From a virus: a stretch of 22,807 bases of DNA. The stretch spans positions 1 to 22,807 of the IMG/VR virus record IMGVR_UViG_3300017753_000121; one strand, written 5' to 3'. Both the position numbers and the translations under genes were made by a program. This document shows, piece after piece, positions 1,164-22,807 of this stretch. Within the stretch, counting starts at the first letter, position 1, and each line of letters opens with the position of its first letter. Below the pieces are notes generated by a model that saw only the letters and a program-made list of their open reading frames with translations, had not been told where the DNA came from and did not search any database.

Positions 1164-3578
1164 ATGGCAGAGTCTGTTGTAAATAATTATTTTCCTAGCC
1201 AAGTAGTTGGTGATAGTGAAAAAAACTCTATAGAATATGGCTTGAAAGTTGCCAAAGCTATAGAGCATGAGTGGTTTCATACCGATAGAGGTTCTAATAA
1301 ATACAGAACTAATCATAATAATTTTCACAAACTAAGACTTTACGCTAGAGGAGAACAGCCTATACAAAAATATAAAGATGAACTTTCTATAAACGGTGAT
1401 TTATCTTATTTAAATTTAGACTGGAAACCAGTACCTATTATACCTAAATTTGTAGATATAGTTGTAAATGGTATTGCAGAAAGAATTTTTGATGTAAAAG
1501 CTTATTCACAAGACCCGTATGGTGTTAGTAAAAGAACTTTGTATTTAGAAAATTTAAAAGAAGATATGATTGGTAAAAACCTAGGCGATAAGGTTCAAAA
1601 AAGCTTTGGTTTAAATATAATGCATAATGACCCAGCAACTTTACCAGAAACAGAAGAAGAATTAAATCTTCACATGCAGTTAAGTTACAAGCAAGCTGTA
1701 GAAATAGCTAACGAACAAGCTATTAATGTTTTATTAGACGGTAACAAATACGAGCTAACAAAGAAAAGGTTTTTTTATGACTTAACAGTTTTAGGTGTTG
1801 GTGCTGTAAAAACAGGATTTGATACGTCAGAGGGTGTTACTGTAAAGTATGTTGACCCGGCTGATCTGGTTTATTCTTATACAGAGTCACCATATTTTGA
1901 TGATATATACTATGTTGGTGAGGTTAAGATGATCCCAGTAAATGAGTTGATAAAACAGTTTCCTAATTTAACAGACTCTGATTTAGAGTCAATGATTAAA
2001 AACAAAAACTATCAAAAAACAAACTACAACAAGGCTGGAAGCAACTTAATAGAAGAAGACAACAACAAGGTTCAGGTTTTATATTTTAATTACAAAACTT
2101 ATAACAACAGAGTTTTTAAAATTAAAAAAACTGGCAGTGGCGCTATGAAGGCTATTGAAAAATCAGATTCTTTTAACCCACCAAATGCACAAGACTTTGA
2201 AAAAGTTTCAGATAGAATAGAGGTTTTATATGAAGGTGCAAAAGTTCTTGGAAGTGAAAAACTTTTAAAATGGGAACTAGCTAAAAATATGGTTAGACCT
2301 AAAAGTGATTACAATAAAGTTAAAATGAATTATTCTATTGTTGCTCCTAGAATGTACAAGGGTAAAATAGAAAGTTTGGTTAGACGTATTACTGGTTTTG
2401 CTGACATGATACAGCTTACACATTTAAAGCTTCAGCAAGTAATGTCTAGGTTAGTTCCAGATGGTATATACTTAGACGCTGATGGTTTAGCTGAAATAGA
2501 TTTAGGTAATGGTACAAACTATAATCCACAAGAAGCTTTAAACATGTTTTTTCAAACAGGATCTATAATAGGTAGATCGTTTACTTCAGATGGTGATCAA
2601 AACCCAGGTAAAGTACCTATACAAGAAATACAATCAGGCTCAGGTGGGCAAAAAATGCAAAGTTTAATACAGACATACAATTATTATCTACAAATGATAA
2701 GAGATACAACTGGGTTAAATGAAGCTAGAGATGCCGCAACTCCAGATAAAAACGCTTTAGTTGGCGTGCAAAAATTAGCAGCCGCAAACAGTAACACAGC
2801 TACAAGACATATATTGCAAGCTGGTTTATTTTTAACACAAGACACTGCGGAATCTTTATCGTTAAGAATATCTGATGTTTTAGAGTACTCACCTTCAAAA
2901 GATGCTTTTGTACAAAAAATTGGAGCTCACAACGTTGCTACATTAAAAGAAGTTGCGGAGTTACACTTATATGACTTTGGTATATTTTTAGAGCTAATGC
3001 CTGATGAAGAAGAAAAAATGATGTTAGAAAATAATATCCAAATGGCTTTACAACAACAAAACATAGAGCTTGAAGATGCTATTGATCTTAGAGAAATTAA
3101 AAACGTTAAATTAGCTAATCAATTACTTAAAATACGTAGAAAAAAGAAACAAGAAAAAGACCAGCAAATACAAGAAAGAAACATGCAACTGCAGTCTCAA
3201 ACAAACCAGCAAGCCGCACAAGCAGCAGCACAAGCCGAAATACAAAAACAGCAAGCGATGATGCAAAGCGAAGCACAGTTAGAGCAAGTTAAAGCACAAC
3301 TTGATACTCAAAAAATGCAAATGGAAGTTGAGTTTAAAAAACAACTAATGGATCATGAGTTTCAGATGAACATGCAGTTAAAACAAATGGAGATGAACGC
3401 TACATCTAACAGGGAAAAAACGAAAGAAGACAGAAAAGACGAAAGGACTAAAATACAGGCTTCACAGCAAAGTGAACTTATTGACCAAAGAAATAACGGT
3501 AAAGCACCTAAAAACTTTGAGTCAGCAGGTAATGATAACCTAGGAGGGTTTGACATGAGCATGTTTGATCCTAAGTAA
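1164..3578 (+). CDS. Portal protein
   Basis: An 804-residue protein directly after terL, in the position and size range of P22-type and crAss-like portals (P22 gp1 has 725 residues). Portals form the dodecameric ring at one capsid vertex through which DNA enters and leaves. The central region, about residues 397-600, carries segments I associate with these portals: IESLVRRITGFADMIQLTHL, the long helix LKLQQVMSRLVPDGIYLD, and TTGLNEARDAATPDKNALVG. From about residue 625 to 770 the chain is rich in Gln, Lys, Met and Glu with hardly any Pro or Gly, so it should form a long helix or coiled coil, probably the barrel or crown that projects into the capsid. The start is ATG at 1164 with leader AAAAAATAAAT and no Shine-Dalgarno sequence. 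The final 50 residues are polar and Asn/Asp-rich. Confidence 0.92.
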   Translation: MAESVVNNYFPSQVVGDSEKNSIEYGLKVAKAIEHEWFHTDRGSNKYRTNHNNFHKLRLYARGEQPIQKYKDELSINGDLSYLNLDWKPVPIIPKFVDIVVNGIAERIFDVKAYSQDPYGVSKRTLYLENLKEDMIGKNLGDKVQKSFGLNIMHNDPATLPETEEELNLHMQLSYKQAVEIANEQAINVLLDGNKYELTKKRFFYDLTVLGVGAVKTGFDTSEGVTVKYVDPADLVYSYTESPYFDDIYYVGEVKMIPVNELIKQFPNLTDSDLESMIKNKNYQKTNYNKAGSNLIEEDNNKVQVLYFNYKTYNNRVFKIKKTGSGAMKAIEKSDSFNPPNAQDFEKVSDRIEVLYEGAKVLGSEKLLKWELAKNMVRPKSDYNKVKMNYSIVAPRMYKGKIESLVRRITGFADMIQLTHLKLQQVMSRLVPDGIYLDADGLAEIDLGNGTNYNPQEALNMFFQTGSIIGRSFTSDGDQNPGKVPIQEIQSGSGGQKMQSLIQTYNYYLQMIRDTTGLNEARDAATPDKNALVGVQKLAAANSNTATRHILQAGLFLTQDTAESLSLRISDVLEYSPSKDAFVQKIGAHNVATLKEVAELHLYDFGIFLELMPDEEEKMMLENNIQMALQQQNIELEDAIDLREIKNVKLANQLLKIRRKKKQEKDQQIQERNMQLQSQTNQQAAQAAAQAEIQKQQAMMQSEAQLEQVKAQLDTQKMQMEVEFKKQLMDHEFQMNMQLKQMEMNATSNREKTKEDRKDERTKIQASQQSELIDQRNNGKAPKNFESAGNDNLGGFDMSMFDPK

Positions 3579-9485: not shown

Positions 9486-12400
9486 ATGCCGGAGATTAAA
9501 AACAATTTCACGTCAGGGAAAATGAACAAAGACCTTGATGAGAGATTATTGCCTAAAAATGAATATAGAGACGCGCTAAATATTGATATTGCTACAACAG
9601 AAGGTAGTGATATTGGTTCTGCGCAAAACTCTTATGGTAATGTAAAAATCTCAACAATAGGTATAGCCGGTTCAAAATGTATAGGTAGTATATTAAATCC
9701 AGAAAACCAAAAAATAATATGGTTTGTTTCTGGTACATCTCAAGATGTTATAGCAGAATATGACCAGTCTACACAGCAAGTAGAAGCTATTTTAGTAGAT
9801 AATCATGGTGGTAATCCTTCGTTTTTAAATTTTAGAGTTCAAAATGGTGCTAGAACTGCGGAAGATAATTTAATAACAGGTATAAATGTTATTGATGGTA
9901 TGTTGTTTTTTACTGATGGACAAAACGAACCTAAAAAAATAAATATTGACAGATTTAAAATTGGTGTAGATGACACTAATCCTTTTACAACTACAAATAA
10001 ATTTGTTGATTCTGATAATATAAAGTCTAGCGATAATGTTTTAGAAGAACACATAACAGTTGTAAAGCAATACCCTTTAGATGCTCCAACCTTAAAGCTG
10101 TATAGAGACATTGCTGGAACTGGAGATCCAAGCACGTCAACACTTACAATTCCAGAAAACACAACAAGAACTTCTTGGGGTACTCCATTTGGTGCTGGTA
10201 CTACTGATTCAGTAGAGTATTATAACGAGGTGTGGACTAGAACTGTTGATGGTGCTGTAAGCTCAACAACAATAAACTTTAACCAATCTGACGACGGTGG
10301 TAATGTTCAAGGTAGTACTAGATGGAACAATGTTGTTGTGGGTATGACACTTTGTCAAGAAAATGGTTTTGCAATAAAAAATTCATCAAACCAACCTATT
10401 GGTATAACAGCTATAGACGCAAGTGCGAATAGTGGTGGTGGTAGTATAACTCTTAGCTCTGCACCTGGGTCAACAATAGCTAATAATACAAAAGTAGGTT
10501 TTAGATGGGCTTTATCGCCACATAGAAATTTTAGTTTCTGGACTTATATAGATGTAAATGGAGATAGGCAAGTAAAACCAGCTGGTACAACCTCTAACAG
10601 TGTTTTAATAGACGAGCTTGAAAATACAGTATTTGATAACAAAGGTAATACCATTAGATTACAACAACTTGCTTTTACGCCTAGGCCTAATTTTGTAGAA
10701 AATGACGTTGTTGTTTTAACTGTACCAAACACTTTGACTACTGATGACGATTCAGATGAGATTAAAGTTAGAATAAGATTACTAGAAGAGGTTACTACGG
10801 GCCCTGTAGTGTCTAATAGTTATAGAAAAGTATTTGATTTTAAAATATTATCAATAGACGAGTCTATAAAACAAATGCAAACCTCTGATTTAACTAATTG
10901 GGAAGTAAAAAGAGAAACAAGCACATCTATATTTGAAGAAAAATTTCCAAGATTTGCGTATAGGTGGAAATATGTTGATGGCGAGTACTCTGCTATCTCT
11001 GCTTTTTCTGAAGTAGCGTTTTTACCGACAGAAGAGGGTTATAATTTTGATGCTTCTTTAGGAACAAATACAAATATAATAAACACGGTTAGTAAAGTAG
11101 AAATAACTGATTTTGTGGAAACACCTAAAGATGTTTTGTCTTTAGATGTTTTAATAAAATTTTCTGACAGCGCTAGCGTTTATAAATATAAAACAATAAA
11201 CAGCACGGATTTAGAGACTTTAACTACGGTTGAGGTTACATCTGATCAGATACACGCAATGTTACCTAGCAACCAACTACTAAGACCTTACGACAATGTT
11301 CCTAAAAAAGCAAAAGCTCAAGAAATAACCGCTAACAGACTTTTGTACGCTAATTATACAAACCAATATAACATAGATGAAGAACCTAGGTTTTCTTTAA
11401 CAGTAGAGTCAAACCTAATGAACACTATAACGGCTCAAAAATCTGTAAAGTCTTTACGTACGTATCAGCTTGGAGCTTCTCTTTTAGATCAATATGGTAG
11501 ACAAACACCTATATTTTCTCAAGCAGACTCTTGCTCTGCAATACTTACACAAGAAGAGTCTTTTACTGCAAACAATTTTTTTGTTAAACAAAACTTTTTA
11601 TTTCCTGATTGGGCTACTCATTTAAAGTATTATATAAAAGAGCCTAAAGGAGAGTATTACAATATTACTATGGATAGAATATACGAAAGTGATACTGAAG
11701 AGTTTTGCTGGGTGTCTTTTCCATCTAGTGATGTTAACAAGGTTTCTGAAGGTGATGAAATAGTATTGAAAAAAAGGCATGATGGTGGTTCACCTTTTAT
11801 AGTGCCAAAAACAGTTTCTTATAAAGTTATAGCAAAAGCAACAGCAGCTCCCGAAGCTATAAAAAATAGAAAAAAGTTTGTAGGAAGACTAGAAAATCAA
11901 TTATTTGGCTCTTACGCAGACGCTACCACAGGTTATCCAATAAAAGGCGGTGTAACAGTTAGAATAAGGGGTAATGGTGGTATAAACAACAACGATGCTT
12001 TAAAAAACATGGCAGACTCTACGTCTACAAATAGATATATTAGAATAGGATCGTACTTGTTAAATACAATTTCTAACTACTACGAAATAGAGTCAATAAT
12101 AAAAGTTGATGCTGGAGACGGTCAAACTTTAGGTAGTCCTGATGGAGATTACACAGACGCTGTTGATTACTGGGAAATATTATTATCAAAACCATTTGAC
12201 AATGACATAAACTTTGTAAAAGGTGCGCCTGGAAGTAGTACTAGAACAGAGTATTTTGAATTATGGGAAGAAAAAGTAAAAGAATTTGATGAAGAGTTTC
12301 AGGGTAGATTTTTTGTAAAAATATTAAAAGATGATTATTTAACAGATTTTGTTACAACTGTTTTTGGGTCTGATGGTTTAAATTATGGTATAAAGTCTAC

Positions 12401-15400
12401 ACAGGATATGTACTGGATTCAAAATGTTTATTCTTCTGATGATGCCAACGATGAAACTGGTCAAGCTGGTAATAGCGCTGACAACAACTCACTAGGTTTT
12501 GAAGATGCCGACTATTTACAGTCAGTGTACACTTTTCCAAGTGAAATAACTCAAACTGTAAATGGAGCAATAACTAATGATGATGAAATAACTTTAGATG
12601 CCGTTGGTACAATACAAGATGGCGCTACAGTAACACGTGCTGATGGCTCACAAATAGGTTCTGGTATTAGACATGCTGTAGTAGTATCTGTAACTGGTTT
12701 AGTGGTAAAAATTAACAAAAACGCAGACTTTGCAGATGGAGAAACTTTAAAATTTTCTATTGTAGAAAGAATAACTCAAGATCCTCATTTGTACATACAA
12801 AATGGTAGCGATGCTATTGGAGCGCCAGATGTTAACGGTGTTGTTTATAAAAACTGGCACTTTTTAGGTGCTTCAGACAATAGAGTTATAGTTCCTTCTT
12901 TAAAAAACGGTGGTATGTATAAAGGGCGACAAAGATACGCTATTGACCAGGCGTGGTCATGGAAACAAAACTCTTACGGCGATGTGTTTGGCCCTGAAAA
13001 TGGCGTGGGAAAGCAAATGGGTGTTGGTTTTAAAGTTGGATCAAGAGAAGTAAATTTTAGGTTGTTTAATTTAGGCCCAGGGTATAAGTTTAGCTCTGCA
13101 TCAAAAACAAGCTCTGATGGATATATATTTCACGATCACAAAGGAGGTCCTGACAGAAAATTTATTACAGAAAACTTTACGTTATACCAGGCTTTAGGTA
13201 GAAAAGGAATGCAGTTTAGATGGACAGATGATCCTACAGAAACTGTCTACACTGTTGAAAAGTCTGAGTTAATTGATGTAAACAACTACACGAACGTTGG
13301 TGGTAATGGAAATAACAACGGTGATTCAGACTTTGACTCAAGAGAAAACCAAGGTATAAAATGGCGTTTAAAACTAGACAAAGCGGTTACGTGGTCTCCA
13401 ACTCAACAATACTACCCTGAAGATGGTACTAACGTAGCAAACCCAGGTAAAATAATACCTTACTATGGTCCAAAACAAACTGGTTTACCAACAAACGCTT
13501 CTGAGTTACAAATTTTAGAACCTATAAGATCTAAACAAAGCTTTAATAGCTTTAGCCCTGCAGTTTTTGAAGTGCAACCCAAGGAAAGTAGTGATTTAAA
13601 TCTTTACTATGAAACACCAAAATCTGTTTTAATACTAAAAGACGATATGTACATCGAAAGGAATGTGCAAAAACCTAATGGTGCTATAGATAATAATGTG
13701 TTTGTTGCCGATGCTCAAATAGTGCTTTTAAACAGTGATTTAATGGATCCAGGTTTTTATATAAAAGGTAACTCTCCTTACAACGAACAAGTTAAACATG
13801 TTGAAGAAGGTTCTTATGTTACAATATATAGTAAGGATGTTAATGGTAATACTAAGTTTTCTCAAAAATTACTAATAGTAAACAGCGTTGCAGCACCAGG
13901 AACGGTAACAAGAAACGTAAACGACGGGTCAAGTCACACTGGTACTGCTAGAAATAATTTTTACTATAAAATACCTTTAAACTGGTTTAATTGTTATAGT
14001 TATGGAAACGGTGTTGAGTCTAATAGAATAAAAGACGCTTTTAACGAGCCAATAATAGATAACGGCCCTAGAGTATCTACTACTTTTATGGGTCAATATG
14101 AAGAAGAAACAAAACCTAATGGAATAATATTTTCAGGAATATATAATGGTAATGGTTCTGTAAACAACCTTAACCAGTTTATAATGGCTGAAGGTATAAC
14201 TAAAGATTTAAATCCTTCTTACGGGTCTATACAAAAATTATTTACTAGAAACACAAACGTTATATCTTTTTGTGAAAACAAAACTTTAAAAATACTAGCA
14301 AATAAAGACGCTATATTTAACGCAGATGGAAATCCTCAACTTATTTCAAATGAAAATGTACTAGGACAAACAATACCTTTTGCAGGTGAGTTTGGTATAT
14401 CTAAAAACCCAGAGTCTTTTGCTAGTTACGGCTATAGAGTTTATTATACAGATAAGAACAGAAATGCTGTTTTAAGATTATCTGGTGATGGTATAACAAA
14501 TATATCTGACAAAGGTATGTCTACGTTTTTTAAAGAAAACTTATCTAACGCCGACACTATAGTTGGTAGTTACGACGAAGATAAAGATACTTATAATTTA
14601 ACATTAAATTCAAAAACTATTAGCTTTTCAGAAAGTGTAAACGGGTGGACTAGTTTAAAATCTTTTATACCAGAAAATGGCTTTTCTGTTAGTGGCGATT
14701 ACTACACCGTTAAAAATGGAGAGCTTTACCAACACAACGAAAATTTATTAAGAAATTATTTTTATGGTGTTCAATATCAGTCTTCTATAAAGTTTATTTT
14801 TAATGACGAACCAGCTTTGATAAAAAACTTTAACACTCTAAACTATGAAGGCACCACGTCAAGGGTTTATGACAATCAAGAAGACGACGTTGTACTAACT
14901 ACAAACGGTTGGTATGCTAACTCTATAGAAACAAATGATCAGTCTGGTCAAATTATACAGTTTAAAGAAAAAGAAGATAAATGGTTTAATAATATAATAG
15001 GCCTAGAAACAACCGATGCTAATGTAGACACAAGCGAATTCACTATGCAAGGACTAGGTACAATACCTACAAGTGGTGTTTCAGTTGGCGACGGAGTACA
15101 TTCAACTAGATACACTCACACTATTTTTGCATACGCACCAGAATCTCCTGATCCAACCGTAACTTTAGTTGGTGGTATTTTTGGGCGCAGTAATCAAAAC
15201 TCTTACCCTACAAGCGAAAGTGGTAATCCTAGCGCTATAGGAGAAACACATGTAAATTCGGGGTTTACAGTTAACGCAGCAAATAAAATTACAGGTACAG
15301 CTGTTGCTGGGCTTCGTTACTTAAGAAACATATGTGAAGATTTAATACCAGGCGAAACATATACTATAACTGCAGATGTTACAATATCTTCTAACAATAA

Positions 15401-15989
15401 CAATAAAACGTTAGGTTTTGGAGGAGCTGGCTTGCCAGTGGCAGAAGCTAGAATATCTACAACAGGGGTAATATCTCACACGTGGACAGCCACAGGTTCT
15501 AACGTCTACTTATTTAAAGGTAGAAATATAGCTTGTGTAATTGATAATATATCTATAATGGTAACACCTCAAGAACAACCAAGGCACCCTAAGTTTAGAA
15601 TAAACACGTCTTCTATCGACGCTAATAGCACAGTGTTTAAAACTTCTGTAACTAACGCTGCAGACACAACAATAGATAACGATGCTTATAATGGTGGTAA
15701 TGATCAAGTTGCTTTTTACGCACACCCTTTAATTGTAAATGGCGCTAAATGGGCTGTTCAAGCAAGTGGCATAACAGTAACAACACCTTCAGATCCCTTA
15801 AATTTAATGAGGGCTGTAACAAAAGAAGACGGTTATATAAACAGTGGTGTTTGGACAGCGAGTAACGCACATCAAGGATTACACACTAATGTTGTTAGAG
15901 TTAAAATAGGTGTTGTGGGTACAATGCCGTCGTGGAACATAGACTCAGTATTAAAATTTGTAGTAGTACCAACTTTAACTCAATCATAA
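9486..15989 (+). CDS. Giant stabilisation/muzzle-like tail hub protein
   Basis: A 2167-residue protein whose opening (FTSGKMNKDLDERLLPKNEY, RDALNIDIATTEGSDIGSAQ) is characteristic of the stabilisation/muzzle proteins that close the tail of crAss-like podoviruses, related in role to P22 gp10 (472 residues). A second diagnostic stretch, about residues 1592-1678, contains GEFGISKNPESFASYGYRVY, then YTDKNRNAVLRLSGDGITN. These fit a large beta-propeller-like hub. Additional beta modules appear at about 250-341 and 1022-1095. Residues about 1923-2026 (LIPGETYTITADV ... ACVIDNISIMV) resemble a carbohydrate-binding jelly-roll. The last 130 residues are another beta domain. It starts three bases after the amber stop of the ring gene and stops one base before the next gene. 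Role by family: plug and hub of the tail, perhaps with glycan contact. Confidence 0.85.
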   Translation: MPEIKNNFTSGKMNKDLDERLLPKNEYRDALNIDIATTEGSDIGSAQNSYGNVKISTIGIAGSKCIGSILNPENQKIIWFVSGTSQDVIAEYDQSTQQVEAILVDNHGGNPSFLNFRVQNGARTAEDNLITGINVIDGMLFFTDGQNEPKKINIDRFKIGVDDTNPFTTTNKFVDSDNIKSSDNVLEEHITVVKQYPLDAPTLKLYRDIAGTGDPSTSTLTIPENTTRTSWGTPFGAGTTDSVEYYNEVWTRTVDGAVSSTTINFNQSDDGGNVQGSTRWNNVVVGMTLCQENGFAIKNSSNQPIGITAIDASANSGGGSITLSSAPGSTIANNTKVGFRWALSPHRNFSFWTYIDVNGDRQVKPAGTTSNSVLIDELENTVFDNKGNTIRLQQLAFTPRPNFVENDVVVLTVPNTLTTDDDSDEIKVRIRLLEEVTTGPVVSNSYRKVFDFKILSIDESIKQMQTSDLTNWEVKRETSTSIFEEKFPRFAYRWKYVDGEYSAISAFSEVAFLPTEEGYNFDASLGTNTNIINTVSKVEITDFVETPKDVLSLDVLIKFSDSASVYKYKTINSTDLETLTTVEVTSDQIHAMLPSNQLLRPYDNVPKKAKAQEITANRLLYANYTNQYNIDEEPRFSLTVESNLMNTITAQKSVKSLRTYQLGASLLDQYGRQTPIFSQADSCSAILTQEESFTANNFFVKQNFLFPDWATHLKYYIKEPKGEYYNITMDRIYESDTEEFCWVSFPSSDVNKVSEGDEIVLKKRHDGGSPFIVPKTVSYKVIAKATAAPEAIKNRKKFVGRLENQLFGSYADATTGYPIKGGVTVRIRGNGGINNNDALKNMADSTSTNRYIRIGSYLLNTISNYYEIESIIKVDAGDGQTLGSPDGDYTDAVDYWEILLSKPFDNDINFVKGAPGSSTRTEYFELWEEKVKEFDEEFQGRFFVKILKDDYLTDFVTTVFGSDGLNYGIKSTQDMYWIQNVYSSDDANDETGQAGNSADNNSLGFEDADYLQSVYTFPSEITQTVNGAITNDDEITLDAVGTIQDGATVTRADGSQIGSGIRHAVVVSVTGLVVKINKNADFADGETLKFSIVERITQDPHLYIQNGSDAIGAPDVNGVVYKNWHFLGASDNRVIVPSLKNGGMYKGRQRYAIDQAWSWKQNSYGDVFGPENGVGKQMGVGFKVGSREVNFRLFNLGPGYKFSSASKTSSDGYIFHDHKGGPDRKFITENFTLYQALGRKGMQFRWTDDPTETVYTVEKSELIDVNNYTNVGGNGNNNGDSDFDSRENQGIKWRLKLDKAVTWSPTQQYYPEDGTNVANPGKIIPYYGPKQTGLPTNASELQILEPIRSKQSFNSFSPAVFEVQPKESSDLNLYYETPKSVLILKDDMYIERNVQKPNGAIDNNVFVADAQIVLLNSDLMDPGFYIKGNSPYNEQVKHVEEGSYVTIYSKDVNGNTKFSQKLLIVNSVAAPGTVTRNVNDGSSHTGTARNNFYYKIPLNWFNCYSYGNGVESNRIKDAFNEPIIDNGPRVSTTFMGQYEEETKPNGIIFSGIYNGNGSVNNLNQFIMAEGITKDLNPSYGSIQKLFTRNTNVISFCENKTLKILANKDAIFNADGNPQLISNENVLGQTIPFAGEFGISKNPESFASYGYRVYYTDKNRNAVLRLSGDGITNISDKGMSTFFKENLSNADTIVGSYDEDKDTYNLTLNSKTISFSESVNGWTSLKSFIPENGFSVSGDYYTVKNGELYQHNENLLRNYFYGVQYQSSIKFIFNDEPALIKNFNTLNYEGTTSRVYDNQEDDVVLTTNGWYANSIETNDQSGQIIQFKEKEDKWFNNIIGLETTDANVDTSEFTMQGLGTIPTSGVSVGDGVHSTRYTHTIFAYAPESPDPTVTLVGGIFGRSNQNSYPTSESGNPSAIGETHVNSGFTVNAANKITGTAVAGLRYLRNICEDLIPGETYTITADVTISSNNNNKTLGFGGAGLPVAEARISTTGVISHTWTATGSNVYLFKGRNIACVIDNISIMVTPQEQPRHPKFRINTSSIDANSTVFKTSVTNAADTTIDNDAYNGGNDQVAFYAHPLIVNGAKWAVQASGITVTTPSDPLNLMRAVTKEDGYINSGVWTASNAHQGLHTNVVRVKIGVVGTMPSWNIDSVLKFVVVPTLTQS

Positions 15990-15990
15990 T

Positions 15991-17604
15991 ATGGCAGGAA
16001 CAATAAAAACATCAACTTTAAATTGTACAGAAAACGCTGTATCTACATACTCTTTAGCTGGGGTTCCACTTACAACAGCCACTTTGTTTACTAAAACATT
16101 TACAGCTTCTACTGGTCATATTTTTACAAAAGCACCTTCTATTAACCTAAACAGTGTTATTAATAAAAACAGCTATTCAATAACTATTAATGACACAGGT
16201 AGTATAGCTGGTGGCAACTTAACTGTTAGATCATTTGTTGTAAAATATAAATACCCATTAAAACAAGTTCAAAATGATACTATAAGTTTTGTAGCTAGAG
16301 CAGAATTAGACATAGCAAACTCTGTAGGTAAAATATACAACTTTATACTTAATAAAAATTGGGTGCCGGCGTCGGGTGAAACAAGATTACTTTCTGTTTT
16401 TGGTGATGAAAGCGACGCAAACAACGCGGCGGCAACATTTACTCTTGACTTTAAACAAGGCAGTACCTCAGTGAGAGTTTCTCCAACAGGTGTTTCTGGC
16501 TCTGGAACCGTAACAATTCCTACTGGCGGAAGATATGACGAAAATTTAGTTTTTCCTCAAGTCACGTCTAACAAAACTTATACTGTTATATTAACACAAA
16601 TAGCAAATAATTCTTTTTTAACGTTGCCAACTCCAAAAACAATAACTATACCACAATATATAGACCCTGTTATAGAGATTAACGCTACGCAATCAGCAAG
16701 CAAGTTTATAACAACAGATGCGGCTGCTATTAGACATACTGATTCTCCATTTTCAAGTAGAGCAAAAGAAATAGATATAGACTGGCGTGTAACATCTCAA
16801 TCTTCATCAGTGCCAATGAAATATGTTGGGGCGTTTAACTACAACGATTTTAGCGCTGATATAGTAAACAGTAATGGTATTTTAGGTTTTACTGATGGTA
16901 CAAAGTTAATATACAACAACTTAGTTGTTGAAATATACCCAGTACAAACAGCTGTTACAGCTGGTGCAACAACTGGAACTGCAATAACCTTAACTGGTAT
17001 AAACAACAGTATATTAAAAGGTATGCGAGTTACTGGTAGTGGTATAACTCACACTGGGGCAAACTCCACGCTTGTAACCGCAGTAAGTGGAACTTCTGTA
17101 ACACTAAGCAAAAGTAGCACTATAGCTAGTGGCACAACACTAACGTTTCACCCTATGGCACATATTACAGGTTCTGTTACGTTTAAAAAATTAGGTTTTA
17201 ATAACCAAACAAGTGGTTTAGTTGTTGATAATATAATAGACTTTAACCAACCACCGGTTCCTACCTTTACGGGTATTGTCAGTATAAGCGCTGAGGAAGC
17301 TGGTAGTTTCACTGGCATGACACCCACGGCTACTGATGCTGAGAGCGACACGCTTACGTTTAAAGTTACAGTAATGCCTCAGCACGGTACGTTTAAATAC
17401 ACAGATGCGCAAAATAACTTACAAACCATAACTTGTACCGGACAAACTTTAACTAGTAATAATACACTACATGCTACAACTAGGCTTCTGCAGTACAAGC
17501 CAGCCGATGGAAATAGCCAAAACACATCATTTCAGTATACGGTGGCTGATCCACATAACGCCGCGGTAGCAACAACAATAACACTTAATATAGCTGCTGG
17601 ATAA
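15991..17604 (+). CDS. Beta-rich fibre or surface adhesin-like virion protein
   Basis: A 537-residue, Thr/Ser/Asn-rich protein that appears almost all beta. Residues 1-230 look like two beta-sandwich units (TLFTKTFTASTGHIFTKAPS; FTLDFKQGSTSVRVSPTGVS). Residues about 320-390 carry the small module ITLTGINNSILKGMRVTGSG, then VTAVSGTSVTLSKSSTI, which resembles modules in neighbouring virion proteins. Residues about 420-537 resemble a cadherin-like domain: PTATDAESDTLTFKV, GTFKYT, LQYKPADGNSQNTSFQYTVA and a final TTITLNIAAG. Such domains mediate protein or glycan contacts in bacterial adhesins and phage fibres. It sits one base after the muzzle gene, so a tail appendage is the best guess; a head fibre is possible. 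There is no transmembrane segment or signal peptide. Confidence 0.62.
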   Translation: MAGTIKTSTLNCTENAVSTYSLAGVPLTTATLFTKTFTASTGHIFTKAPSINLNSVINKNSYSITINDTGSIAGGNLTVRSFVVKYKYPLKQVQNDTISFVARAELDIANSVGKIYNFILNKNWVPASGETRLLSVFGDESDANNAAATFTLDFKQGSTSVRVSPTGVSGSGTVTIPTGGRYDENLVFPQVTSNKTYTVILTQIANNSFLTLPTPKTITIPQYIDPVIEINATQSASKFITTDAAAIRHTDSPFSSRAKEIDIDWRVTSQSSSVPMKYVGAFNYNDFSADIVNSNGILGFTDGTKLIYNNLVVEIYPVQTAVTAGATTGTAITLTGINNSILKGMRVTGSGITHTGANSTLVTAVSGTSVTLSKSSTIASGTTLTFHPMAHITGSVTFKKLGFNNQTSGLVVDNIIDFNQPPVPTFTGIVSISAEEAGSFTGMTPTATDAESDTLTFKVTVMPQHGTFKYTDAQNNLQTITCTGQTLTSNNTLHATTRLLQYKPADGNSQNTSFQYTVADPHNAAVATTITLNIAAG

Positions 17605-17615
17605 AATAAATAAAC

Positions 17616-18035
17616 ATGCCTAGAATAGATATAAAACTACCTTTACCACTAAATCCTTCGTTAACAGCAAAAGTAGCTACGGTTGCTACTGACACTGAAG
17701 ATACTCCAGACACTGGCGCTTGGGACGTTATATACTTTTGTAAAGTAAATTTTTCTACAGGTAAACAGATAGGTGATGTAGTTAGGTTAGGTGAGTGTAT
17801 AGCATTGACAAATCCTAGCGCTGAAGATGAGCTAACAACATATACTATAGGAGTGCAAACAACTGGAACAGAATTACTACCTGTTGCGGGTGATTATGTG
17901 TTTTTTGGTAAAGATACAAAAGTAAATACCTCTGGTGTTAGAGGTTACTACGCAGAGGTTGAAATGAAGAACGATTCAAACTCACAAGCTGAGTTGTTTT
18001 CAGTAGGTGCAGAAATAAGCGCTAGTAGTAAATAA
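17616..18035 (+). CDS. Small beta-rich virion-module protein, function unknown
   Basis: A 139-residue protein in the tail/fibre region. The sequence alternates hydrophobic and small polar residues (AWDVIYFCKVNFSTGKQIGD, GVQTTGTELLPVAGDYVFFG) and ends with GYYAEVEMKNDSNSQAELFS, so it is probably one compact beta-barrel or sandwich. It has two Cys residues and no signal peptide or membrane segment. I do not recognise the family. By place and size it could be a capsid decoration protein, a fibre-attachment protein or a small tail component. The start is ATG with leader AAAATAAATAAAC; no Shine-Dalgarno. Confidence 0.6.
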   Translation: MPRIDIKLPLPLNPSLTAKVATVATDTEDTPDTGAWDVIYFCKVNFSTGKQIGDVVRLGECIALTNPSAEDELTTYTIGVQTTGTELLPVAGDYVFFGKDTKVNTSGVRGYYAEVEMKNDSNSQAELFSVGAEISASSK

Positions 18036-18078: not shown

Positions 18079-18714
18079 ATGCCATTACCATTAGCAGCAA
18101 TGTTAATTCCTGGAGCTTTAACCGCAATTGGTGGTTTGATGGGTGGAAAAGCCCGTAGAAGAGAGCAAAGACGAGCAAGGGAAGAATACAACGCAAGAAA
18201 AAAAGATTATCAAAACATGTCATTTAGCAATCCTTATGCTAACATGAGTAACGTTTATGAAAATTTACAAGTAAACACAAAGCAAGCAGACTTTATGAAA
18301 GAACAACAAATGCAAGGTTCTGCAAATGTTATGGATGCTTTAAGTGGTGCTGCTGGTAGCTCCGGTATTGCTGGTTTAGCCCAAAGCGTTTTAAACGCTA
18401 ACACACAAGCTGCTCAGCAGTCTTCAATTTCAATTGGTCAACAAGAACAAGCTAACCAACAAGCCATGTTAGGTGAAAGATCTAGGTTACAAGGTTTAGA
18501 CAGAGAGGGCCAACAATACGTAGAAGAACAAAAGAACGCAAGAACACAAACTTTACTAGGTATGTCACAGACTAGATACAGAGAAGCTAACGCTGCGAGA
18601 CAAGCCGCTAGAAATCAAATAATGTCTGGTATTGGACAAATGGGTAGTGGTTTAATGGCTGGTGTAGATGCTGGTATGCATAAAAACAACTTTTTTACAG
18701 GAAAAACTCCCTAA
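18079..18714 (+). CDS. Ejection / internal virion protein, T7 gp14-like
   Basis: A 211-residue protein starting with a hydrophobic segment (residues 3-23, LPLAAMLIPGALTAIGG), followed at once by a basic cluster (KARRREQRRAREE). Residues 55-185 are Gln/Ala/Ser/Asn-rich helix (NANTQAAQQSSISIGQQEQA; YREANAARQAARNQIMSGI), and the C-terminus is Gly/Met-rich and mildly hydrophobic (GIGQMGSGLMAGVDAGM). This plan and length match T7 gp14 (196 residues) and its podoviral counterparts, which sit in the head core, leave the particle with the DNA and insert into the outer membrane. The following two genes have the relative positions of gp15 and gp16. Assignment is by architecture and context; direct similarity to gp14 was not testable. 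The upstream 43-base gap shows no hairpin. Confidence 0.6.
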   Translation: MPLPLAAMLIPGALTAIGGLMGGKARRREQRRAREEYNARKKDYQNMSFSNPYANMSNVYENLQVNTKQADFMKEQQMQGSANVMDALSGAAGSSGIAGLAQSVLNANTQAAQQSSISIGQQEQANQQAMLGERSRLQGLDREGQQYVEEQKNARTQTLLGMSQTRYREANAARQAARNQIMSGIGQMGSGLMAGVDAGMHKNNFFTGKTP

Positions 18715-18719
18715 ATAAT

Positions 18720-20219
18720 ATGGCACAAACAAACAACTTAAATGCAATGCTTATAGCTGGTGAATCTGGCTTAAGTGAAAACATGTCTTTTAGGACAGAT
18801 TTAATATCTAATCCTATAATGGAGCGCATGTCTAGAACTTTAGAAAGTAACGCTGAAAAGGCAAAAGCAATAACAGCTAATATAAACAAAGCAACTGAAA
18901 AAGTTGATGATAAAACTGGTGAAATAGTTAAAGATATTACAGATAATAAAATAAGAAACGTAGTTTATAGACTTGCTGCTGGTTTTAAAAATATGTTTGC
19001 AGCTTCTGGAGGTGAAGGTGAAGACGTTATTATGGGTGAATACCAACAAGTTGAAACTGCAACAAATAATTTATTAGACGATAAAAAAGATTTTCAACAA
19101 AACAGAGATGGTAATAATTATTCCGCTGGTTCAAGCGTAAGAACTTACGATGCTAACGAAAGTGTGCACGGTGGTAATTATATAGGAGATCCTGTTTATA
19201 ACAGCCAAACAAATCAAATGATGTTTTTAGTTCCAATACCACAAGGTGATTATGGCAACACTACAGAGCAACTAGACGCTGATTATGAATCTTATGTTTC
19301 TGAAATGACTACTTTAAATGATGACGATTTACAAGAGTTTAGGAATTTGAAATCTAGAAAATCTACTGGTGAAAAGTTAACGGCAGAGGAGCAAACAAGA
19401 ATTGATGAGTTTGAAGCTATTGGCAGTAAAGAAGGCGTTTTAACCAAAAACCAGTGGTTATCACAACAACAAGGTGTTGATAGTGGTGGTGGCAACGAAA
19501 CCGAATTACAAGCTGGTAGAGACGGTTATATGTGGGTTGATTTAGATTATTTAAACAAAGATGTTGTATTAAAAGATGCCGAATTAATGACGGCTTTTGA
19601 AGAAGGCTTTGATGATATTTACAACACTGGATCAAGCAATAAAAATGTAAAAAGAAATAGCAATGGAGATGTTGCTATTGATGGTATTGATTTAAACGAG
19701 CTTACCAACAACAAGGAAACTTTGATAACTATGGCTTGGGATAATTATGCTAAAGACGGTGGCACTACTTTTTACGAAGACTTTGCTGATAAAAACCCAA
19801 ATGCCGATAGAAACTGGATGAAAGTTGACCACCCAGATTTTGATCAAAAAAGATTAAAAGATGAGGTAATGAAATTTTATCAAAACAAAATAAACAAAAA
19901 ATACGAGTCTGGAGTTGCTGACTATAAAAACACTACACAAGGAGGTATAAAAGTTGAGCAAATAGACAATATGGTTGACAACGCTTTTAAAACCGTTATA
20001 ACGTCTACTGAGGGTGAAGGAGAAACAGACACTGTAGTAGATTTTTCTATGTTAAGAACGGATAGAAGGAAAGTTGATTTAAGTAACGATGGTGAAATGT
20101 ATGAAGTTTTATCTTGGGAAAATGGCGATTGGGTTGTAATGGAAGAGTTTCCAAAAGATACAGACCCAAATATACTTAAAAAATATTTTAAAGTAGCATT
20201 TGGAGGTAGTTTAAATTAA
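18720..20219 (+). CDS. Probable internal virion protein, unrecognised family
   Basis: A 499-residue, acidic, Asp/Asn-rich protein between the gp14-like gene and the lysozyme-bearing gene, the position that gp15 takes in T7-like ejection cores (T7 gp15 has 747 residues). Residues 25-90 are helical and charged (ERMSRTLESNAEKAKAITAN), followed by a slightly hydrophobic helix (VVYRLAAGFKNMFAAS). Around 199-240 is another charged helix pair (EFRNLKSRKSTGEKLTAEEQ). The C-terminal part has mixed segments such as FSMLRTDRRKVDLSNDGEMY, then EVLSWENGDWVVMEEFPKD. It has no Cys, no signal peptide and no enzyme motif I can name. Role as an ejection protein is inferred only from neighbours. The start is five bases after the previous stop, with leader AAATAAT. 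Confidence 0.55.
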   Translation: MAQTNNLNAMLIAGESGLSENMSFRTDLISNPIMERMSRTLESNAEKAKAITANINKATEKVDDKTGEIVKDITDNKIRNVVYRLAAGFKNMFAASGGEGEDVIMGEYQQVETATNNLLDDKKDFQQNRDGNNYSAGSSVRTYDANESVHGGNYIGDPVYNSQTNQMMFLVPIPQGDYGNTTEQLDADYESYVSEMTTLNDDDLQEFRNLKSRKSTGEKLTAEEQTRIDEFEAIGSKEGVLTKNQWLSQQQGVDSGGGNETELQAGRDGYMWVDLDYLNKDVVLKDAELMTAFEEGFDDIYNTGSSNKNVKRNSNGDVAIDGIDLNELTNNKETLITMAWDNYAKDGGTTFYEDFADKNPNADRNWMKVDHPDFDQKRLKDEVMKFYQNKINKKYESGVADYKNTTQGGIKVEQIDNMVDNAFKTVITSTEGEGETDTVVDFSMLRTDRRKVDLSNDGEMYEVLSWENGDWVVMEEFPKDTDPNILKKYFKVAFGGSLN

Positions 20220-20231
20220 AAATTATATTTA

Positions 20232-22807
20232 ATGTCTGAAATTAATTACGACAAGTATTTAGAAAACGAAAATGTACAGTGGTTTCTTCATAATTTAATG
20301 GAGCACGAAGCTGACAAGACTTCAGACGGAAACATAAATTATGGAGGCTTTAACCAAGGTGGTAGTAATTCTACTGCTTTTGGTTTTGCTCAATTTACAG
20401 GCATTACAAGAAATGAAATTTTAGAAAAATACAAAGTAGACGCTTGGTCAAATGACTTAAACAGTCAATTTAAAGCAACATTAGCGCTACTACATATGGA
20501 CGGTGACTTAGACAACGTTGCAAGTGGAGATTTTGAATCTGTGTTTGGAAAGTCATCTCTTAAAACAAACAAAGATAACCAAATGGTTGGCGGTTCTCGC
20601 TGGCAAGCTTTTTACCCAGAAGGTCATAAAGATTTTTTACCAGATACAAATAAAAATAGTGTTTTATTTAGTGAAAGACCTGAGGGTTGGCAAACAAATT
20701 ACCAAAATTATATAGATAGCGCTATTTTTGACCCTAAAACTTCTTGGTCAAATATAGGTAATTTAGACAAAGGCTTAGACATACAAAAGAAAAAAAGAGA
20801 TCTTTACACTATTACTTATAAGGACAGTTTAGTTCCTCAGCACATATTAGATAGTATTGTTATAAACGAGGAAGACCCGGGTAATGTAACTGAAGTTGAT
20901 AATGACGATCCTTTCAAAAAGATTGACGAGTATGAAAAAAGAAAAAGTATTGAACGAAAACGAAAAATCAATAAAAATCGTAATAAAGAAGGTGTTGTAA
21001 GCGATATTATAGATAAGATCAGTTCTATGCATGGAGATCCATCTGATTGGGAAAAAAATACAAATCCCAATGCTCCAAAGATTAATTTTACAATACAGTA
21101 CGATGAAAATGGAAGGCCAATAGGTACTACTCAACGTGACAATTCACCAACAGTTGAAAATCAAAATTTAGTAAACAGAGAAAAAGAGCAAGCTAAAAAA
21201 ATAAACACTTTTAACTACGAAGGTCTTTCTGGCGATGTAAAAAATGCTGAAGAAGCAAGACTACAGTCTATGTTAAGGTATTTTTCTGCGTTAGAAGGTA
21301 GAGATCCTGAAAACTTTTTTAAATCAAAAGAAGAATACAAAGAGTGGTGGGTTAAAAATAATCCTAATTTTGGGCCTTTAAGCTTTGAGGCTACTTGGAA
21401 AAAAACAAAAAACACTAAGTTTAAGTTTGACGAAGAGTTGTTGTATAAAAAATCTGAACTAGAAAAATTAAATAAAGCTATTGACGAAATATACGATGGT
21501 GAGTTTGAACCAGACGAATCAATAGTTGATGATATGCGTATGGCTGTTTTAAGCCAATTAACAGAAGAGGATATAAGACAACTATCAAGCGGTTTGTTAA
21601 AGGGAAGTCATTTTACAACTGAAGAAAAAAACGCTATATTAAAAAATGCTAGAATAAAAATATACAACGATCAGCAAGAAAAAATGGCACCACAGTATGA
21701 CGTGTTGTTAGAAGAAAAAAAAGTTATTGACGAAGCTACAGCTGTTATAGAGGCTGATCAAAACGATTTACTTGCTGAGAGAGAATTGTTAGAGACACGA
21801 AGATCTGAAATGATGGAAAACGGTCGTTTTGAATATAATAAAATTGGCCAAGAAAGAGAGCAGTGGGTTCCAAACAGTGCTAGGGAGTTTGTTGATTTTC
21901 AAGCTGATGTAGAGATGTTTGAAAACAAATTAGATATTTTTAAATCTCAACAAGCTGTTTACGATGCTAAAGTTGAAGATTATAATTTAAAGGCTAAGGA
22001 GTTTGTTAAAAAAGAAGAAGATCTTCAAGCTATGTTAGCTTACAATGTAGTAGATGGAGCTCCTGTTTTTGACAAATCTATAAAAAGTTTTAGTGTTAGA
22101 AGTGCTGAGTGGCAAGAGAGTTTGAGAAATTTATTAGGCAGAGACACTTGGTACGCAAAAACTTTAGACTCGTTTTTAAGCTTTGCTAAGCCCTTTGCAG
22201 GTATGACAGCTGATATTTATACTTTTTCTTACCAAGCTGGAATTGCTTTTGCGGGTTTTGCTTCTGATGAAATTGGGTATGCTGCTGGTTACAAACAAAG
22301 AGGTGTAGACCATAGTAATTTTGAAGCTGTGTTAAATATGATGACGAGAGGTGGTTATGTACAAAACCTTATACCTACATCTCAAACAGAAGACACTAAG
22401 CTAACGCAAAAAGAATATAGAAACAGAGAGTTGTTTGGTATTGATATGAGTGGCTCACCTATATTTAGTAGAACTAAAATGAAGGAAGATGCCACTTTGT
22501 ACATGCATGCTAAAAATTGGCTACCTGTTTTTGCATATCCTTTGGTTTTAGTAAGATCAAACGCTAAACTACAGTTAAAGCAAGTTCAAAAGTACAAGAG
22601 TAAAGGTTTTAAAACCTTTAAAAACAGATTTCACATGAAGGGTGCTTCTAAAATAGACAGACTTGCTTGGCAGTATTTAGGTATAGCAAGAATACAAGCT
22701 AGAAAAGCTGCGCCAGGTTCAAAAAAACTAATTAACATGTTATCGCCGTCGTTTAAAATGACAGAAAATGCGGCTAGAAAAATAAACATGATTAACGTTA
22801 CTATGAA
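20232..22807 (+). CDS. Large ejection protein with N-terminal lysozyme-like domain (partial, 3' end missing)
   Basis: I translated this frame from ATG 20232 to the window end: 858 codons with no stop, so the gene continues beyond. Residues about 14-90 resemble a phage lysozyme or transglycosylase domain: a helix with candidate catalytic acids E24 or E26 (WFLHNLMEHEADK), then YGGFN and STAFGFAQFTGITR, comparable to the substrate-cleft GxxQ segment of lysozyme-like folds. Such a domain would open peptidoglycan during DNA entry. Residues 230-254 are strongly basic, about 483-531 are coiled-coil, and residues 646-688 contain a long mildly hydrophobic stretch (FAKPFAGMTADIYTFSYQAG, IAFAGFASDEIGYAAGY). 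T7 gp16 has 1318 residues with an N-terminal transglycosylase, which is the same plan. A tail-associated lysozyme or a multi-domain virion enzyme is the alternative. Confidence 0.7.
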   Translation, partial: MSEINYDKYLENENVQWFLHNLMEHEADKTSDGNINYGGFNQGGSNSTAFGFAQFTGITRNEILEKYKVDAWSNDLNSQFKATLALLHMDGDLDNVASGDFESVFGKSSLKTNKDNQMVGGSRWQAFYPEGHKDFLPDTNKNSVLFSERPEGWQTNYQNYIDSAIFDPKTSWSNIGNLDKGLDIQKKKRDLYTITYKDSLVPQHILDSIVINEEDPGNVTEVDNDDPFKKIDEYEKRKSIERKRKINKNRNKEGVVSDIIDKISSMHGDPSDWEKNTNPNAPKINFTIQYDENGRPIGTTQRDNSPTVENQNLVNREKEQAKKINTFNYEGLSGDVKNAEEARLQSMLRYFSALEGRDPENFFKSKEEYKEWWVKNNPNFGPLSFEATWKKTKNTKFKFDEELLYKKSELEKLNKAIDEIYDGEFEPDESIVDDMRMAVLSQLTEEDIRQLSSGLLKGSHFTTEEKNAILKNARIKIYNDQQEKMAPQYDVLLEEKKVIDEATAVIEADQNDLLAERELLETRRSEMMENGRFEYNKIGQEREQWVPNSAREFVDFQADVEMFENKLDIFKSQQAVYDAKVEDYNLKAKEFVKKEEDLQAMLAYNVVDGAPVFDKSIKSFSVRSAEWQESLRNLLGRDTWYAKTLDSFLSFAKPFAGMTADIYTFSYQAGIAFAGFASDEIGYAAGYKQRGVDHSNFEAVLNMMTRGGYVQNLIPTSQTEDTKLTQKEYRNRELFGIDMSGSPIFSRTKMKEDATLYMHAKNWLPVFAYPLVLVRSNAKLQLKQVQKYKSKGFKTFKNRFHMKGASKIDRLAWQYLGIARIQARKAAPGSKKLINMLSPSFKMTENAARKINMINVTM

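Follow-up and report, generated by a model that had tools for sequence, protein, structure and literature searches.

Three consecutive genes at the 3′ end of a viral DNA stretch were analysed, the stretch being IMG/VR virus record IMGVR_UViG_3300017753_000121 at its full length of 22,807 nucleotides (nt; hereafter the window). Their products, proteins A, B and C, are in our judgement likely to be cargo ejected by a short-tailed phage of Bacteroidota from the neighbourhood of Pervagoviridae, Pachyviridae and Elemovirus. The three open reading frames (ORFs) were found on the plus strand at 18079–22807, where the original prediction had located them:

18079..18714, plus strand: protein A, 211 amino acids (aa), candidate first-out ejection protein
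18720..20219, plus strand: protein B, 499 aa, candidate tunnel protein or second cargo protein
20232..22807, plus strand: protein C, of which 858 aa are seen, the 3′ end lying past the contig; N-terminal portion of a giant cargo protein

The whole virus record has only 22,807 bases, so that the stretch is most likely a fragment, and the ORF of protein C is open at the contig end.

The arrangement is not due to chance, because it recurs in relatives. Among 13 extra contig stretches picked for reaching far past the portal gene, 11 carry A, B and C in a row and the other two end before the cassette. In the 11 stretches, A comprises 219–385 aa and B 423–711 aa, followed by the giant C, and a large ORF at the muzzle position precedes the trio in 10, the remaining one (locus L101) starting after it. 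A profile of A matched at least 546 relatives in IMG/VR, and 80 loci were kept; L120 is the same contig as L097, so this set and the 13 stretches overlap. All 80 loci have an A-type ORF; B lies next to it in 79, and 66 also have a third ORF, the stretch ending where this one is missing. Intergenic gaps range from −31 to 29 nt between A and B and from −3 to 24 nt between B and the third ORF. Complete B proteins (n = 69) have 274–878 aa (median 421) and complete third ORFs (n = 22) 1149–2874 aa; 30 more third ORFs are open and have at least 1000 aa. An upstream ORF of at least 1000 aa, taken as the muzzle gene, occurs in 79/80 loci. The order is also that of named phages, whose giants comprise 1439–3859 aa, with the exceptions of Gundel, in which the cassette block lies upstream of the portal gene, and of phi46:3 and phi19:3, in which a 102-aa gene separates B from C. 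The prediction of a very large third protein thus holds for the relatives (1149–3859 aa when complete), while C of the window, being open, amounts to at least 858 aa.

Evidence for the presence of such proteins in virions comes from a related cultured phage. In the record of Cellulophaga phage phi40:1, gp097–gp101 (the muzzle-position product plus four encoded downstream of it) are marked ‘annotation based on experimental MS/MS proteomics analysis’ (MS/MS, tandem mass spectrometry), and gp099–gp101, the counterparts of A, B and C, are annotated ‘structural protein’; B is syntenic with gp100 and C with gp101. The crassvirus phi14:2 shows the same note and the same layout for g071 to g067, again the muzzle place and four genes behind it. 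These are annotations carried by the records. The gene block is hence already annotated as structural from MS/MS in a related phage, and absence from virions, which had been put forward as an argument against the original prediction, does not apply to gp099–gp101. Taken together, the recurring order and the phi40:1 annotation lend good support to a packaged, probably ejected set.

The record of phi38:1 (KC821614; locus L085) credits ‘phi18:1_gp91-gp101’ as its similarity source. Since phi18:1 is described in a passage of PMC11946311 as a 39.2-kb phage and the MS/MS notes stand on the phi40:1 record, this credit may be a label error.

The closest known systems are gp098–gp101 of phi40:1 (Pervagoviridae, Callevirus) and the equivalents in phi38:1, phi46:3, Gundel, Panino, the elemo phages and ctfjg026, which share the gene order. 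Their A is homologous to A of the window, in both the phi38:1-type and the phi46:3-type form. They differ in that the portal of the window is 35% identical to that of phi38:1, B is 13–16% identical to their B, and C is without detectable match. In addition, C of phi38:1 differs from most giants in lacking an HExxH motif, and phi46:3 has the extra small gene between B and C.

Protein A agrees with the description of a membrane-prone, Gln/Ala-rich first protein of about 200 residues. Its Gln plus Ala content is 25.1%, as compared with 8.9–19.7% in 11 other window proteins measured, and residues 3–21 form a single hydrophobic Gly-rich stretch (mean hydropathy 1.78) followed by a basic segment. 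Such a hydrophobic-plus-basic segment was present in the first 60 residues of 72 out of 91 A proteins, against 1.4 expected after shuffling; the 91 remained of 98 sequences in the A profile after identical ones and those longer than 420 aa had been dropped. The criterion is one of simple hydropathy and not a trained predictor, and it was applied to the first 60 residues of A and to the first 400 of reference proteins, of which crAss001 gp45 and T7 gp16 pass and T7 gp14 fails; the hydropathy window flags one stretch in A and none in T7 gp14.

A matched phrog_13764, ‘virion structural protein’, at E=2.1e-4, and 6 of 16 A proteins match this family. With hhalign, a profile of 12 IMG/VR-type A sequences, the window included, matched the proteins of Panino, the elemo phages and phi38:1 at E=1.5e-7 (probability 93.9%) and those of phi46:3 and Gundel at E=6e-8 (probability 94.7%). 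These profile alignments show A to be homologous to the phi38:1-type protein of cultured phages. A tblastn search of A against 50,697 phage records gave no match, and a sequence search of the Protein Data Bank (PDB) nothing significant.

A structure model of A, built from 66 sequences (the window and 65 of the 80 loci), reached a predicted local distance difference test (pLDDT) score of 69.2, with helices at 23–45, 59–91 and 98–195. The predicted architecture is a hydrophobic Gly-rich N-terminus, a basic helix, and a helix-turn-long helix. In BFVD, two entries were significant, namely ‘Internal virion protein [uncultured virus]’ (E=6.3e-6) and one unnamed entry (E=4.3e-4); a ‘Structural protein’ of phi13:2 ranked third (E=0.74), and ‘Putative internal virion protein’ of Pseudomonas phage LKA1 was 18th at chance level (E=7.3). 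Foldseek against the PDB listed a single match, at chance level, and VIA gave two that were weak (Z 3.5 and 2.7); no T7 protein was among them.

Protein B, with 499 aa and no membrane-like hydropathy stretch, corresponds to the mid-sized soluble second protein that had been described. No PHROG matched it at E≤0.1 and no Pfam family above its cut-off. Recognisable homologues of B of the window were restricted to L163 and L180 among 96 other B-position proteins.

Protein C of the window proved to be similarly isolated. No match was obtained by phmmer against the other third ORFs and the ORFs behind them (83 and 14, in all 97 sequences), by tblastn against 50,697 phage records, or with the whole of C against 45 records. 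IMG/VR scans with C, and IMG/VR and GTDB contig scans with its N-terminus, yielded no relative, these scans reaching close relatives only. Residues 1–150 gave chance matches only, in Escherichia phages, by tblastn up to E=10, and residues 1–200 nothing significant in a PDB sequence search. Pfam returned nothing up to E=10 for the N-terminus, where the HMMER filters drop most weak matches.

The original prediction had assigned to C an N-terminal domain resembling peptidoglycan-cleaving enzymes. Residues 24–90 contain E24 and E26, then AFGFAQFTGITRNEIL, then NDLNSQFKATLALL, with the motif ...AFGFAQFT..., a run which we take to read like SLT or tail lysozymes. Alignment with the T7 gp16 N-terminus gave p=0.11–0.13 with standard gaps and 0.012 with loose gaps, and alignment with phi29 gp13 p=0.24 and 0.08, respectively. 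In a set of 98 sequences (84 third ORFs, the window included, and 14 ORFs following them), a strict lysozyme-like pattern occurred in two, the window and L111, where shuffled sequences would give 0.5; confined to the first 170 aa, the count was two against 0.025 expected, and a looser pattern was at chance (2 seen, 2.3 expected). The L111 match indicates that the pattern is not specific. A single-sequence AlphaFold model of residues 1–170 was poor (pLDDT 56.6; predicted template modelling score 0.61) and had no significant structure match and no lysozyme among the matches listed. Wall-cleaving Pfam families were absent at E≤0.01 from 18 full-length or partial C proteins, and also from the leading portion, of at most 650 aa, of 61 other C proteins. 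A lysozyme-like N-terminal domain is thus possible in C of the window, while it is not seen as a feature of the lineage; the claim as made comes down to a motif, with neither Pfam profile support nor a relative among 83 other third ORFs.

The giant third proteins of relatives have another conserved feature. Of the third ORFs in the 80 loci, 48 reach 1500 aa or more, and every one of these contains HExxH; HExxH with a Glu about 60 residues downstream was invariant in all 43 aligned. A HAD-like DxDxT motif was present in 32 of the 48 (25 aligned, mean column identity 40%); near-duplicates and cut or inserted sequences were left out of both alignments (43/48 and 25/32). The zincin and HAD labels are given on the basis of motifs, and profiles of the two regions did not match the PDB (HAD at E≤0.1). 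The HExxH region and a DFDDT region sit in third ORFs of L106–L185. In a first set of C proteins HExxH was present in 14 out of 18 and missing in Panino, phi38:1, phi46:3 and the window, in which there is none within the 858 aa, C being cut before the region that carries HExxH in relatives. One or two C members each match zeta-toxin/AAA kinases, DUF3293, GNAT, polynucleotide kinase and a tRNA methyltransferase family (Pfam). In crassviruses, subunits of a virion RNA polymerase are additional cargo; here, an RNA polymerase-like DxDxD motif occurs in 1 of the 98 sequences. According to passages of Iyer et al. 2017 (PMC5512222), polyvalent proteins are injected and modular, with zincins and at times lysozymes. 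The giant, modular C of relatives, which lies beside late genes and has a zincin-type site, would fit such polyvalent-type cargo rather than a gp16, and lysozyme domains are known in that class; the difference is that zincin-type features are seen in the C of relatives alone, C of the window being cut earlier. In L148 (from 11647) and L166 (from 11656) the giant seems to be split into two adjacent ORFs, of 1206 and at least 1710 aa and of 1149 and at least 1799 aa, respectively.

Further observations concern the surroundings of the cassette. In L121, the ORF that holds A, around 8213–8674, has 604 aa, roughly threefold the norm, and is followed by an ORF of at least 1052 aa; it represents a form that is extended, fused or organised in another way. 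In L092 (5859–6329) and L098 (13787–14230), the Ig-like gene and A are separated by the gene of a small protein starting like ‘NFRxFKxGDYETCCEWW’, possibly an acetyltransferase as judged by eye. Just past the giant C, at least five relatives have a gene with a signal- or lipoprotein-like start, that is a hydrophobic segment, often with Cys:

L091, 18250–19350: gene with signal- or lipoprotein-like start
L093, 5286–6365: the same type
L098, 2987–4075: the same type
L099, 19413–19878: the same type
L100, 13900–14949: the same type

Upstream of the cassette, the genes are in the order TerL, portal, 389-aa acidic protein, capsid-type protein, 268-aa protein, two structural proteins, muzzle, Ig/cadherin-like protein and 139-aa protein, followed by A, B and C. 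No tRNA genes were found in the 22,807-nt stretch. The assignments are:

TerL, 5′ end cut: phrog_6681, E=2.5e-88
1164..3578, plus strand: portal with a long Gln-rich C-terminal tail; phrog_6547, E=9.5e-158
Capsid-type structural protein: phrog_13704, E=5e-98
Two structural proteins at the tail-ring place: phrog_14543 and phrog_13977, putative ring role from position
9486..15989, plus strand: muzzle, 2167 aa, with C-terminal crassvirus muzzle domain; PF25729 crAss_MUZ_C, 37.8 bits (cut-off 27), E=2.6e-9
15991..17604, plus strand: Ig/cadherin-like protein, located between the muzzle gene and the cassette; PF02014 Reeler at 23.1 bits against a cut-off of 21
17616..18035, plus strand: 139-aa protein directly 5′ of A, in the position of phi40:1 gp098 (MS/MS)

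The muzzle has 2167 aa here and 1371 aa in crAss001 (gp44), and the match to the crassvirus domain is confined to its C-terminal region. For the Ig/cadherin-like protein, Big_9 and Cadherin_3 matches were below the Pfam cut-off, and no Pfam family matched the 139-aa protein.

Related portals are encoded by at least 600 IMG/VR stretches and 87 phage records; among named phages, portal identity is 54% to ctfjg026, 47.5% to Maribacter phage Panino, 43% to Flavobacterium elemo phages, 35% to Cellulophaga phi38:1 and 28.7% to phi13:2. The records of named relatives that were opened belong to Pervagoviridae, Pachyviridae or Elemovirus or are unclassified, and these three taxa stand directly under Caudoviricetes, outside Crassvirales. 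The hosts of cultured relatives are mostly marine Flavobacteriia, and the virus is probably a bacteriophage of a marine Bacteroidota host. A lineage muzzle profile (the window and 45/79 loci) matched crAss001 gp44 at E=8.7e-9 and phi14:2 g071 at E=0.003; the portal profile (the window and 21 loci) matched crAss001 gp20 at E=1.2e-4 and phi14:2 g093 at E=0.011. In view of these matches, calling the backbone crAss-like is right in a broad sense, by way of the muzzle and more weakly the portal, although the nearest named relatives are classified outside Crassvirales. In the part of Bartlau et al. consulted (PMC8776804), families are defined by portal and ‘structural proteins’. No published treatment of this cassette was found, as judged on titles and the beginnings of abstracts with subscription journals mostly uncovered, and the passages of PMC13288928 and PMC7886860 contain nothing on it.

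For the function of the cassette the following model is proposed. A, B and C would be packed in the virion and leave through the muzzle, which opens upon binding, ahead of the DNA. A would come out first and insert its hydrophobic segment in the membrane; B would join A and form or line a conduit, probably extending the channel across the periplasm. C would thread through, perhaps with local peptidoglycan cutting in this phage, and bring enzymes into the cell, where the metallopeptidase may cleave C or host proteins. We infer the location in head or tail, the membrane insertion of A, the tunnel of B, the order of exit and the activity of C from the features described above. A C-terminal portal barrel is reported for P22 and crAss001 in passages of PMC10172136, and a T7-type core stack of ejection proteins for phages whose portal is without a barrel in passages of PMC8954989. 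By analogy, the portal of the window, with its Gln-rich tail, may form such a barrel at its C-terminus, in which case the cargo is expected around the portal and in the tail and not in a T7 core.

Several points weigh against this interpretation. Ejection and channel formation by A, B and C are predictions, membrane insertion by A is based on a hydropathy window, and B and C are almost without sequence link to proteins of known function. The alignments used phi38:1, a relative standing in for phi40:1. C of phi38:1, phi46:3 and Panino is devoid of HExxH, and the C-position proteins of phi46:3 and phi19:3 are annotated hypothetical and set apart from B by the 102-aa gene. It is conceivable that no channel is formed, A and B serving as accessory proteins of the tail or head and C being a separately packaged enzyme, a polyvalent effector. 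The C proteins of relatives do suit polyvalent proteins as portrayed in passages of PMC5512222, being giant and modular, with a zincin-type site and near late genes, and the PHROGs class of A is merely ‘head and packaging’. We consider this unlikely, as A, B and C are tightly linked wherever the sequence reaches. Moreover, the short tails of podoviruses require an envelope-spanning conduit.

The preferred reading of an ejected trio leaves its descent to be considered, and here the crassvirus cargo block is the nearer model. In crAss001, muzzle gp44 is followed by gp45 (C1), gp46 (C2) and the giant gp47. According to passages of Bayfield et al. (PMC10172136), C1, C2 and gp47 were detected in virions by mass spectrometry, C1 was partly resolved at the portal and in the tail barrel, C1 and C2 are proposed as channel formers, and the membrane helix of C1 is compared with T7 gp14; this account is repeated in passages of the review PMC10136315. 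Descent of the trio from this block (A from C1, B from C2, C from the gp47 giant) is compatible with ejected cargo and is a tentative possibility, which we hold to be somewhat doubtful. The cassette is placed behind a homologous, crassvirus-type muzzle, in the order C1-C2-giant and with the same size trend as in crAss001 gp45–gp47 and phi14:2 g069–g067. A membrane segment lies near the N-terminus of the first protein in both (72/91 A proteins by hydropathy, as above), and the best three of 55 proteins for the A profile were C1 proteins (crAss002, E=0.0011; crAss001, E=0.003; cr128, E=0.016; next 0.066), the match covering the membrane segment and the basic helix. Pairwise comparison of A with gp45 gave p=0.002, gp47 also has one HExxH, and phi13:2 is part of the crassvirus comparison in the passages of Bayfield et al. 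On the other hand, A does not match PF25725 (crAss_CARG1) at E≤0.1, while crAss001 gp45 does so at E=2.3e-66, and A has 211 aa against 420–857 aa at the C1 position. Locally shuffled C1 sequences scored equally in 0, 6 and 3 of 100, and there was no signal from three other C1-position proteins (DAC17, Carjivirus, phi14:2 g069) or between A and a 40-row C1 C-terminal profile. B and C are without detectable homology (B versus gp46, p=0.28; C versus gp47, p=0.09), the HExxH of gp47 is near its C-terminus with a non-significant profile match (E=0.022), T7 gp16 also has an HExxH (at 559, no significant profile match), and the nearest named relatives are outside Crassvirales. Single-sequence hhalign is weak: among 29 phi14:2 proteins, the counterpart came first for the window portal (E=0.0079), third for the capsid protein and sixth for the muzzle. 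The similarity of A to C1 is no more than suggestive; position and layout agree with the crassvirus block, and descent is suggested and not demonstrated. A correspondence of the A core to the C-terminal part of C1, alike by eye, was rejected, the 40-row C1 profile scoring 16.1 versus 15.7 for the best of 30 column shuffles.

Descent from a T7 ejectosome, highly diverged, with A as gp14, B as gp15 and C as gp16 with an N-terminal transglycosylase, appears very unlikely. The size plan is indeed T7-like (about 200 aa, mid-sized and large, consecutive), the first protein is Gln/Ala-rich in both (T7 gp14, 27.5%), and the possible lysozyme-like motif of C, with its loose-gap alignment to the gp16 N-terminus, adds to the likeness. 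The T7 gp14 family phrog_805 was weakly touched by 2 of 16 A proteins (best E=0.32), and hhalign of the A profile against the gp14 family gave E=0.052, equalled in 2 of 200 column shuffles. This last value was rejected as evidence: the portal profile, with its Gln-rich tail, reaches T7 gp14 at E=0.0083, so that such values are noise. Gln/Ala-rich helices evidently give spurious ‘gp14-like’ matches. A did not match PF24072 (T7_gp14), nor B the gp15 family phrog_1339, at E≤0.1, while T7 proteins match their own families strongly (gp14, E=7.6e-47). The A profile against T7 gp14 alone gave E=0.85, pairwise comparisons p=0.27 (A with gp14) and 0.41 (B with gp15), the muzzle profile did not match T7 gp12, relatives lack a wall-cleaving Pfam family, and the Gln-rich portal tail suggests a barrel of the P22/crAss type, which is said to accompany lack of a T7-type core stack. 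In these comparisons the trio resembles that of T7 in layout only. The term T7-type is consequently not upheld, with no gp14 family for A, no gp15 match for B, and a transglycosylase that is unproven and not seen in relatives; of the two options offered, an ejectosome of T7 type or an analogous one, what stands is a packaged trio of ejection-type cargo, and kinship with T7 does not. It is also misleading to set a T7-like cassette against a crAss-like backbone, because crassviruses themselves have a cargo block with this placement and gene order. By analogy the T7, crassvirus and present cassettes may work alike; the trio is filed here only with the cassette of its own lineage.

It might be speculated that T7 gp14, crassvirus C1 and A are one very old first-out ejection protein that has diverged past sequence detection, which we rate as improbable. 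Such a protein would be characterised by a membrane-active segment, a basic helix and a helical hairpin. If this were true, podovirus ejectosomes would share an origin and the third protein would be free to gather enzymes, a putative wall-cutter at the N-terminus here, and zincin and HAD phosphatase in relatives.

The proteins of the cassette diverge unequally. A is kept at 34–47% identity to the window in 65 aligned relatives, while B and C are fast-changing. This is supported as fitting the known pattern of podovirus ejection proteins, since passages of PMC8954989 describe a first protein that is short and conserved, followed by one that diverges and then by a large one, gp15-like proteins being matched by size and synteny. 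The lineage shows this rule to hold in a little-studied group: the small protein is conserved, the middle one varies freely and the giant bears enzymes. Podovirus ejection proteins are recognised mostly by size and order, and A (phrog_13764-like) is offered as a marker gene for such cassettes. Given the conserved metallopeptidase-type site of the giants, cultured phages could be used to test for self-processing or an attack on the host during entry. The label of the cassette may be corrected to one of crassvirus-type placement, with descent from T7 undemonstrated.

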